NCBI RefSeq assembly: GCF_009189165.1
Contig: NZ_CP045118.1
Location: forward strand, 5,456,001 to 5,520,000
Length of the DNA: 64,000 bases
Reading direction: 5' to 3'
From: Pseudomonas sp. SCB32
GTDB taxonomy: Bacteria; Pseudomonadota; Gammaproteobacteria; Pseudomonadales; Pseudomonadaceae
This document shows, in pieces, positions 31,710 through 33,606 of this stretch (positions are counted from its first letter, which is position 1; each line of letters begins with the position of its first letter). The position numbers were made by a program, and so were the translations under genes. Below the pieces are notes generated by a model. The model saw nothing but the letters and a program-made list of their open reading frames with translations, did not search any database and was not told where the DNA came from.

Positions 31710-32148
31710 ACGTGAACTCCCTGGTTGCCGCGTCGGTGAAAGGCCTGGCATCCCGGCGCCAGACCCAGTGCACGGGTTGCGATGAAAGCACGACCGCCGG
31801 AGCCCGCCGCGCCGGCATTCTCCCTTGGTCCGTGAATTTGGACCACCGTTGGCGCGGTAAATCTCCCGCAATCGATCGCGCAGGGGCAGGCCTGGACGGA
31901 CAACGCGGGGAAAAGTACCGGCGGGTACCGCGCCGGGCTCGCTCGGCAGGTCCTCGCTGAATCCACGAAAGTGGCGCTCTAGAGCCGTTATCGGCGAATT
32001 CGCCAGCAAACATATCCATAAAACAGATATTAACGGTTAAGCCGATAGCCCCTATCAAGGTTATCGATATAAGCACAATTTACTAACTAAATATTTGTTT
32101 TATAACAGGTAAATAAACAATCATCGACATCGATACAGACTATCTCCA
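31710..32148. other. Intergenic region with AT-rich stretch upstream of repeat-protein gene 1
   Basis: No gene is seen. From about 31995 the DNA becomes strikingly AT-rich against the GC-rich background (for example TTACTAACTAAATATTTGTTTTATAAC near 32090-32105). It contains the short palindrome GATAG-CCC-CTATC (32044-32056) and is likely to hold the promoter and upstream binding sites of the gene at 32230. Similar but shorter AT-rich sequence precedes the second gene. Confidence 0.5.
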
Positions 32149-32229
32149 GGCATCGTTTTCCAATCGATTATCCAGAACGGATACTGAGCCCGTGTCCAAG
32201 AACTCCCCCACTCTTTCTGGAGCCGAATC
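32149..32229 (+). promoter_or_regulatory. 81-nt leader of repeat-protein gene 1 with SD-pairing hairpin
   Basis: TCCAGAA (32171-32177) is the exact complement of TTCTGGA (32215-32221), which includes most of the Shine-Dalgarno GGAG (32219-32222). The leader is homologous, and equal in length, to 33034-33114, where a different pair of arms does the same job. A conserved unpaired segment CCCGT..CCAAGAACT lies between the arms. The structure could limit translation, as an RNA thermometer or protein/sRNA-controlled switch. Confidence 0.55.
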
Positions 32230-32784
32230 ATGAAACGCACTCTCGTACTTGGCTTTGCCCTCTCCGTACTTGCTGTCAATGCCGCTTTCGCCGGCGCCCA
32301 GCAAGAGTCCCCGGTCCTGAACGCCAGCCACGTTCAAATGCTGGTCCAGGACGGCGCCGAACACGCCCTGGATCAACAACAACAGAAGCAACTGGACGCG
32401 GCCCAGGCTCGCATCGCCGAGAACGGCTCCAGTCAATCGGTTGATCGTCTGCACCACGAAATGAACGTTGCTGAAAACGGTTCCAGCCAGTCGGTTGATC
32501 GTCTGCACAAGGAACTGGGTGTTGCCGAGAACGGCTCCAGCCAGTCGGTCGATCGCCTGCACCAGGAAATGAGCGTTGCCGAGAACGGCTCCAGCCAGTC
32601 GGTCGATCGCCTGCACCAGGAAATGAGCGTTGCCGAGAACGGCTCCAGCCAGTCGGTTGATCGCCTGCACCAGGAAATGAGCGTTGCCGAAAACGGCTCC
32701 AGCCAGACCATCGACCGCCTGCACGGCAACATGGTCGCCGAGTCCGGTGGCGATACCGTCTTCGACGCCCACCTGAAGGCCTGA
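32230..32784 (+). CDS. Secreted tandem-repeat protein 1 (18-residue VAENGSSQSVDRLH repeats)
   Basis: The 184-residue protein has a Sec signal peptide (1-21, cut after AAFA), a Gln-rich helical stretch (24-61), six repeats of about 18 residues (62-168; core AENGSSQSVDRLH plus HEMN, KELG or QEMS) and a C-terminal cap VAESGGDTVFDAHLK. The cap itself looks like a diverged repeat unit. No cysteine, lipobox or membrane anchor is seen, so it should be periplasmic or exported. It is a paralogue of the next gene. I do not recognise a function; repeats of this general type occur in uncharacterised Pseudomonas proteins. Its neighbours give no clue. Confidence 0.8.
   Translation: MKRTLVLGFALSVLAVNAAFAGAQQESPVLNASHVQMLVQDGAEHALDQQQQKQLDAAQARIAENGSSQSVDRLHHEMNVAENGSSQSVDRLHKELGVAENGSSQSVDRLHQEMSVAENGSSQSVDRLHQEMSVAENGSSQSVDRLHQEMSVAENGSSQTIDRLHGNMVAESGGDTVFDAHLKA
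32413..32733 (+). repeat. Coding tandem repeat, six 54-bp units
   Basis: Six units of 54 bp (last one 51) begin at codons 62, 80, 98, 116, 134 and 152. Units 3 and 4 are identical in nucleotide sequence and unit 5 differs at a third codon position, which points to recent duplication by slippage or unequal crossing over. Confidence 0.9.
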
Positions 32785-32812
32785 TCCACGCAGTACGCCG
32801 CAAGGCGACAGA

Positions 32813-32835
32813 AAAGCCCGGCCCTGCCGGGCTTT
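32813..32835 (+). terminator. Terminator after repeat-protein gene 1
   Basis: AAAGCCCGGC (32813-32822), loop CCT, GCCGGGCTTT (32826-32835), followed by CTTAT. The same stem with another loop ends the second gene. The 3' flank GCCGCAAGGCGACAG is also shared. Confidence 0.85.
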
Positions 32836-33033
32836 CTTATGCCCTTCCGATCTCAACAGCAGCAGTGCTAGCAATGCTGGGCAAGTTCAGCGTTGTAACG
32901 ACATCCTACTCAACCCACCGCCTCAATCGCCTGAAAGCGCCGTCCCAGATCGCTTTTCGTCGTTACATCAGCGGTAGCGATAGTAGAAATTAGCCGGCTA
33001 AATAATCGATGACGTTGATCCGCTCTATTGAGA

Positions 33034-33114
33034 GGCATCGTTTTTAAATCGATTAATCCGAAGGGAAAATGAACCCGTAGCCAAGAACTTCCTCCCCCTT
33101 CGGAGCCACTTAAA
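33034..33114 (+). promoter_or_regulatory. 81-nt leader of repeat-protein gene 2 with SD-pairing hairpin
   Basis: TCCGAAGGG (33057-33065) is the exact complement of CCCTTCGGA (33096-33104), which includes three bases of the Shine-Dalgarno GGAG (33102-33105). Compared with the leader of gene 1, both arms have changed but remain complementary, which is the pattern expected for a selected RNA structure. The loop segment CCCGT..CCAAGAACT is conserved. Confidence 0.55.
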
Positions 33115-33561
33115 ATGAAACGCCAGATCGCCCTCAGCCTTGCACTCACTTCCCTGATGACCGCCAGCGCCGCCTTTGCCGCACCGGCCATCCTGAACAA
33201 CGGCCCGCGCGCCACTCACCAGCACGAACACCAGCTGCAGCAGAAGAGCGGTGAAGCTCACGTTGCCGCCAACGGTTCCGAGCGCACCATCGATCGCCTG
33301 CACAAGCAGATGGGTGATGAAGCCCGTGTTGCCGAGAATGGTTCCGACCGCACCATCGACCGCCTGCACAAGCAGATGGGTGACGAAGCCCGCGTTGCCG
33401 AGAACGGCTCCGACCGCACCATCGACCGCCTGCACAAGCAGATGGGTGACGAGGCCCGCGTAGCCGAGAATGGCTCCGAGCACAGCATCGATCGCCTGCA
33501 CAGCAATATGGTTGCCGAGTCCGGTGGCGATACCGTCTTCGATGCTCACCTGAAAGTCTGA
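33115..33561 (+). CDS. Secreted tandem-repeat protein 2 (22-residue VAENGSDRTIDRLHKQMGDEAR repeats)
   Basis: The 148-residue paralogue of the preceding protein has a Sec signal peptide (1-22, AFA-A cleavage), a His/Gln-rich stretch (33-49, HQHEHQLQQ), four repeats (50-132) and the same C-terminal cap as protein 1, identical except for the last residue. The unit here is 22 residues because a five-residue GDEAR linker follows the shared core VAENGSxxxIDRLHxxM, so the core is kept while the period is not. The His-rich segment could bind a metal. Function unknown; leader and terminator are homologous to those of gene 1, which implies duplication of the whole transcription unit. Confidence 0.8.
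   Translation: MKRQIALSLALTSLMTASAAFAAPAILNNGPRATHQHEHQLQQKSGEAHVAANGSERTIDRLHKQMGDEARVAENGSDRTIDRLHKQMGDEARVAENGSDRTIDRLHKQMGDEARVAENGSEHSIDRLHSNMVAESGGDTVFDAHLKV
33262..33510 (+). repeat. Coding tandem repeat, four 66-bp units
   Basis: Units start at codons 50, 72, 94 and 116 (the last is shortened to 51 bp before the cap). The middle units encode identical peptides with a few synonymous changes. Confidence 0.9.
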
Positions 33562-33582
33562 TCTACGCCGCAAGGCGACAGA

Positions 33583-33606
33583 AAAGCCCGGCTAATGCCG
33601 GGCTTT
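33583..33606 (+). terminator. Terminator after repeat-protein gene 2
   Basis: AAAGCCCGGC (33583-33592), loop TAAT, GCCGGGCTTT (33597-33606), followed by CTTATTT. It lies about 80 bases from the convergent MFS gene and may serve both strands. Confidence 0.85.

Follow-up and report, generated by a model that had tools for sequence, protein, structure and literature searches.

A tandem pair of exported repeat-protein genes in Pseudomonas sp. SCB32, the probable counterparts of PA4881, with a MexT-like promoter box upstream of the first copy

In Pseudomonas aeruginosa, PA4881 has been described as a MexT-controlled 'tandem repeat protein' that 'remains uncharacterised', and its promoter is bound by PA2206; the H2O2 sensitivity of a PA4881 mutant on disks was not raised (PMC3557286). 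Among the MexT-dependent genes tabulated in another study, after removal of the core RhlR genes, it shows the largest fold change (log2 −6.5; PMC12607905). Its values are −10.68 in a parS mutant and −9.13 in a parR mutant (PMC3848899), and its expression is increased with a MexEF-OprN inducer (PMC10848761). The P. aeruginosa regulator gene is set in a mexS, mexT, mexEF-oprN layout (PMC7697342), the MexT motif has been given as ATCA(N)7CGAT (PMC11144800), and in PAO1 MexT activates PA4354, PA4355 and xenB (PMC12607905). No paper found in the literature search connects the VAENGS or VAEGGSDR arrays, taken as a family, with MexT; the original PA4881 studies (Tian 2009, Fargier 2012) may say more.

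The window analysed here is a 64,000-nucleotide stretch of the Pseudomonas sp. SCB32 genome (contig NZ_CP045118.1, positions 5,456,001 to 5,520,000), and positions are those of the window unless stated otherwise. The original prediction was of two adjacent genes of 184 and 148 codons encoding secreted repeat proteins. The open reading frame listing gave exactly this arrangement, with P1 (184 aa) at 32230–32784 and P2 (148 aa) at 33115–33561, both on the forward strand and both starting with ATG. The predicted arrays of one core were found in both genes by Tandem Repeats Finder, as 54 bp × 5.7 at 32416–32724 in P1 (score 471) and 66 bp × 3.8 at 33253–33502 in P2 (score 374), so that the units are 18 and 22 residues long but have a common core. 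Judged by eye, the Sec signal peptides proposed for both proteins are also present. Pairwise comparison of the units gave a pS of 0.367 against a pN of 0.084 for P1, and 0.246 against 0.120 for P2; this excess of pS over pN between units within each gene argues for translation and for selection acting on the protein.

The regions around the two arrays are duplicated as well. The upstream regions form a 102-nt pair (72% identity), the 3′ coding ends, including the cap, a 120-nt pair (83%), and the terminators share pieces of 29 and 16 nt that are 100% identical, in keeping with the near-identical terminators proposed earlier. Terminator-like hairpins follow both genes, at 32820–32833 for P1 (duplicated flank and terminator scan) and at 33583–33606 for P2, where the terminator scan called an intrinsic terminator. 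Two other elements of the earlier description hold in a modified form. The near-identical C-terminal cap, VAESGGDTVFDAHLK, is there, but reads as a degenerate final copy of the core (VAESGGDTVFDAHLKA at 32734–32781 in P1 and VAESGGDTVFDAHLKV at 33511–33558 in P2; this is our reading of the frames and duplicated flanks). The 81-nt leaders are homologous, but are probably in part promoter, because the conserved blocks extend further upstream and the predicted RNA folds of the two leaders are unexceptional (z −1.16 and −1.66). A regulatory RNA in the leader was considered and set aside, as the two Rfam matches scored 22.6 and 20.6 bits against gathering scores of 70 and 114 and the folds do not stand out. 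A phage origin was likewise discarded, the PHROG matches (16.8–29.2 bits) covering repeat stretches only, and the plasmid search gave no match.

A match to a well-characterised family had been named as the finding that would overturn the prediction; no Pfam family scored above its cut-off with either protein. The nearest NCBIfam model was NF041599, the N-terminal domain of the co-regulatory protein PtrA, which P2 matched at 27.5 bits, below the cut-off of 31, and which P1 did not match at E ≤ 1. Several related arrays from other Pseudomonadaceae, described below, exceed this cut-off (L101, 151.9 bits; L099, 108.9; L043, 67.1; L068, 58.2; L097, 56.3), and the PtrA domain shares with the arrays both export and an AEGGSDR-like motif. 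PtrA itself is described as copper-induced and dependent on CopR/CopS (PMC8872213). The SCB32 genome also carries a separate PtrA-type gene (L004, genome positions 2609417–2609548), which scores 66 bits against NF041599 and lies beside a sensor-kinase gene.

The region upstream of P1 contains a site, ATCATCGACATCGATACAGACTAT, at 32120–32143 on the forward strand, 110 nt upstream of the start codon. It was recognised as the MexT box, ATCA-N5-GTCGAT-N4-ACYAT. The 24-nt search pattern was this box with one position loosened to R after the A in the window was known; in the 6.3-Mb SCB32 genome it matched perfectly at two sites and with one mismatch at a third, and the reversed pattern, used as a control, matched nowhere. 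The perfect matches were the P1 promoter and a site upstream of an ArsR/MFS/flavin-oxidoreductase operon that resembles PA4354–PA4355–xenB of PAO1. The shorter pattern ATCA-N7-CGAT occurs five times in the window, four of them within the P1 and P2 promoters. Besides the full box, pattern scanning placed a P1 half-site at 32054–32068 (forward strand) and two P2 half-sites, one at 32967–32981 (forward strand), 148 nt upstream of the start codon, and one at 33005–33019 (reverse strand), at the place that corresponds to the full box of P1. In the P2 promoter the full box is gone and half-sites remain. A scan for sigma-70 promoters found none.

The same division between the two genes is seen in their orthologues, the upstream regions of which are conserved in blocks. 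A perfect box is present in 15 of 16 P1 orthologues, whereas none of 15 P2 orthologues has the box at two or fewer mismatches and all 15 have ATCA-N7-CGAT at −148 to −150. Across 93 repeat genes, a sample made up of top-ranked matches rather than drawn from all genomes and from which two genes with one mismatch each (L097 and L107) had been left out, the box was perfect in 47, had one mismatch in 14, two in nine and three or more in 23; 70 of the 93 therefore have it with at most two mismatches. All 47 perfect boxes are on the coding strand, 103–113 nt upstream of the start codon, and an opposite-strand box occurs in two of the 70. Among the 23 genes lacking a good box are three VAEGGSDR-type genes (L095, L098 and L106, six mismatches each) that have leaders of a different-looking type. 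A narrower set of 83 genes omitted ten true repeat genes, of which L104 has a perfect box and the others have one, two or six mismatches.

Resampling of the promoters (830 sequences) gave no box with one mismatch or fewer and a single one with two. In a control set of 487 other upstream regions there were 11 perfect boxes, and all 11 perfect boxes assigned to other open reading frames (484 regions) proved to be repeat-gene boxes viewed from overlapping or antisense frames. Eight further genomes together contained 11 perfect sites (reversed control, none), seven upstream of repeat genes, two upstream of the ArsR/MFS operon and two elsewhere; one genome, G225, had no perfect 24-nt site. Perfect boxes away from both the repeat genes and the ArsR/MFS operon were seen in L164 (G274) and L168 (G012), at position 1501.

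A search of the SCB32 genome with a MexT query found a homologue at genome positions 2207212–2208123, with 85% identity over 304 residues. Pfam identifies it as a LysR protein, and it adjoins an RND pump, the fusion protein of that pump and a zinc-type dehydrogenase, an arrangement that matches the mexS, mexT, mexEF-oprN layout of P. aeruginosa. The pattern ATCA-N7-CGAT is not found in the 11.5 kb around this gene, which argues against taking this half-site as a complete description of MexT targets.

The link to PA4881 came from a PA7-like genome (G012). There, a gene for a 113-aa DRLH-repeat protein comes next after a bacterioferritin-like gene and is succeeded by genes leading to a regulator/sensor pair and an MFS gene, which we take to be the order PA4880–PA4887, with the DRLH-repeat gene at the position of PA4881. 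Since this gene order is accompanied by ATCATCGGGATCGAT upstream of the DRLH-repeat gene, P1 and P2 are taken to be co-orthologues of PA4881. This assignment, which rests on the gene order, the printed description 'tandem repeat protein' and the shared regulation, is very probably correct. PA4881 and the window pair would then have in common the tandem-repeat protein, the export leader (by eye) and, in the case of P1, the MexT-box-like site; the pair differs from PA4881 in having two copies, 18- and 22-residue units, a C-terminal cap and, for P2, no full box. The earlier view that no member of the family had been characterised thus survives as far as function is concerned, but the likely P. 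aeruginosa counterpart had already been published as a MexT-controlled tandem-repeat protein (PMC3557286). The tandem-repeat kind is already known, though uncharacterised, and the interesting part is the coupling of MexT to the repeats.

With P2 as the query, matches (E ≤ 1e-3) were obtained in 24 of 25 genomes of the genus. Inspection of the loci showed both P1 and P2 in 15 of the 25, which agrees with the proposal that the whole transcription unit was duplicated and the arrays then diverged separately. Copy number at the locus was otherwise three in G005, two in G002, one in seven genomes and none in G024; the single copy of G018 is cut by a contig end, and G012 has one further copy elsewhere. 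The three tandem copies of G005 (L124/L032) include a 320-aa protein made almost entirely of VAENGSSQTVDRLHSQLG units. In G024 (L145) the interval lacks the repeat genes and the MFS gene, and the AsmA frame abuts the beginning of the desaturase gene; the arrangement looks like the outcome of a single deletion. The eight relative loci came from two P. nitroreducens strains, P. nicosulfuronedens, P. pseudonitroreducens and four other Pseudomonas strains. BLAST of the flanks of 17 repeat genes, with the neighbours in the window as reference, found an AsmA homologue in ten and an MFS homologue in nine; one or both were present for 12 of the 17 overall and for nine of ten within the genus. Outside the genus, L109 and L115 adjoin AsmA and L112 is near an MFS gene. 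An AsmA gene beside the repeat gene was not borne out for L112, L117 and L119, the first and second of these having MFS alone, and the fetched flanks of L110, L111, L113 and L116 contained neither homologue, so the family also has copies at other places. In several genomes (e.g. at L118, L123 and L125) the AsmA and repeat genes are separated by a 177-aa bacterioferritin-like gene, which is present in 13 of the 25 genus genomes and absent from that of SCB32.

Sister arrays of the VAEGGSDRLIER type occur elsewhere in the Pseudomonadaceae, for example with units of VAEGGSDRLIERNNR (15 aa) and RVAEGGSDRLIEN (13 aa), and some genomes have several paralogues. With a partial protein from G018 made of VAEGGSDRLLERN units as the query, 250 of the 398 family genomes gave matches (E ≤ 1e-3), some of these being weak cross-matches to window-type (VAENGS) arrays, and L068 (VAEGGSDRLIERRQQHMQ) is an intermediate array. 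Given how many genus genomes (24 of 25) hold relatives, and given the sister arrays elsewhere in the family, P1 and P2 are not orphans. An order-wide search matched 16 of 390 genomes, 13 of them in the same family; the other three were discounted, G629 because it matched on both strands, G764 because of 12 stops and G454 as weak (E 1.5e-6). Comparison of 253 VAENGS-type with 327 VAEGGS-type units showed that V1, A2, E3, G5, S/A6, I/L/V10, D/E11 and R12 are common to both, R12 being at 60% among the VAEGGS-type units, and over all 580 units the core is kept while the spacers vary. Unit spacings of 13, 15, 18, 21 and 22 are all common, and 83 proteins had from 3 to 15 units each. The VAEGGSDR-type proteins resemble those of the window in core, leader type and box-to-start distance, and in part in neighbours, but have 13- or 15-residue units that are rich in Arg, Glu and Gly and almost free of Met and His. 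Every VAENGS-type protein contains Lys and Met, two residues that are rare in VAEGGS-type proteins.

The composition of the mature proteins is uniform in one respect: Cys and Trp are absent from all 93, and Tyr occurs in ten. Hydrophilins are Gly-rich, hydrophilic proteins that are low in aromatic residues, with Gly above 6% and a GRAVY below −1, and the P1/P2 family is similar in being Gly-rich and hydrophilic with few aromatics. These limits hold for 15 of 83 proteins, among them P2 (Gly 8.8%, GRAVY −1.06) but not P1 (Gly 6.8%, GRAVY −0.78). An AF2 model of P2 (15 sequences) had a mean pLDDT of 48.7, with helices at the core. Sequence comparison with the PDB gave no match for P2 and, for P1, one chance-level tropomyosin match (E 0.49).

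Homology, neighbourhood, box and composition are what the sequences themselves show, and the explanation that we favour, at a probability of about 60%, builds on these. P1 and P2 would have arisen by tandem duplication of a gene equivalent to PA4881, and would be exported by the Sec route as arrays in which copies of a core of 12 residues, V-A-E-[N/G]-G-[S/A]-x-x-x-[I/L/V]-[D/E]-R, are joined by spacers of variable length. The LysR regulator MexT, answering redox or electrophile stress, would turn on P1 through the box at 32120–32143, and control of P1 by MexT in this strain is highly likely. In P2 the half-sites would have come to be arranged differently, and this gene is probably under partial MexT control, or under that of a related LysR protein instead. 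Under MexT-inducing stress the envelope would then be filled by a protein that lacks Cys and Trp and is hydrophilic, disordered and multivalent, and that would shield envelope proteins or surfaces. That both are disordered envelope proteins seems reasonably likely; the shielding role is a tentative proposal, less likely than not. A disordered multivalent protector fits because the number and spacing of the units vary, aromatics are few, Cys and Trp are absent and the repeats turn over quickly. Counting against the explanation are the 23 of 93 repeat genes without a good box, the two good boxes on the opposite strand, the lack of a full box at P2, the disk result for the PA4881 mutant (PMC3557286), the small share of proteins within the hydrophilin limits (15 of 83, with P2 but not P1) and a confident beta model of one sister array. 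Best supported is the view of P1 as an exported product of the MexT response and of P2 as a duplicate of P1 whose regulation has been rewired.

Other readings of the repeats were weighed against this one. Each unit might be a short linear motif that docks on a single envelope partner, such as a pump or outer-membrane component, with the array raising avidity. The eight positions conserved over the 580 units amid variable spacers would suit such docking, as would the box type common to P1 and the PA4354-type operon, but the pair lies far from the mexT and RND-pump genes (genome positions 5488230 and 2207212) and the core itself differs between clades, which makes this unlikely. A beta-solenoid or fibre at the cell surface is somewhat less likely still. 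It draws on the AF2 models of L099, a 13-residue sister array (seven sequences), three of five being strand-rich at pLDDT 77–79 (best 79.0, pTM 0.69); the other two, however, were at about 31, and AF2 is reported to over-predict beta-solenoids for perfect repeats (PMC11795689). Foldseek found no match in the PDB to the L099 model at E ≤ 0.001, the P2 model is of low confidence and helical, and a regular solenoid sits poorly with so many common spacings.

The His and Met of each unit (DRLHxxM) raise the idea of a periplasmic metal sponge, for which SilE/PcoE or PtrA-type copper proteins are the His/Met precedent. Of the 242 DRLH-type units, 182 do have Met three residues past the His, and P2 has its 27.5-bit similarity to the PtrA domain, but 59 of the units have Leu in place of this Met, the sister arrays contain 0.07% Met and 0.78% His, so that the ligand spacing is not kept across relatives, the promoter box is MexT-like and the genome has its own PtrA-type gene; we regard this role as improbable. 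Neither metal binding nor fibres are supported, and nothing found here favoured the fibres or repeated-ligand binding of the original prediction. Cleavage of the array into many short secreted signal or antimicrobial peptides would make use of the Sec leader and of the near-identical units, which are homogenised within genes; against it, the VAENGS type has no conserved cleavage site by eye, no protease or receptor gene adjoins the array in the flanks examined and unit length is variable, and we give it little chance. Its more ambitious form, a Cys/Trp-free exported array that is a major conserved MexT output across the Pseudomonadaceae and is processed into short intercellular stress-signal peptides, is the least probable of all.

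Together with their relatives, P1 and P2 point to PA4881 as a member of a large exported repeat family, in which the repeats change fast while the spacing between the MexT-type box and the start codon stays almost constant. The role of a leading MexT-dependent gene becomes testable in harmless environmental species, and P1, with its full box, and P2, with an altered one, form a natural pair for following how LysR-type sites evolve after duplication. Genes labelled 'phage infection protein' in P. fluorescens may belong to the same family; one such gene has a Sec signal and one was 32-fold up against a fungus (PMC8490769, PMC5557065).
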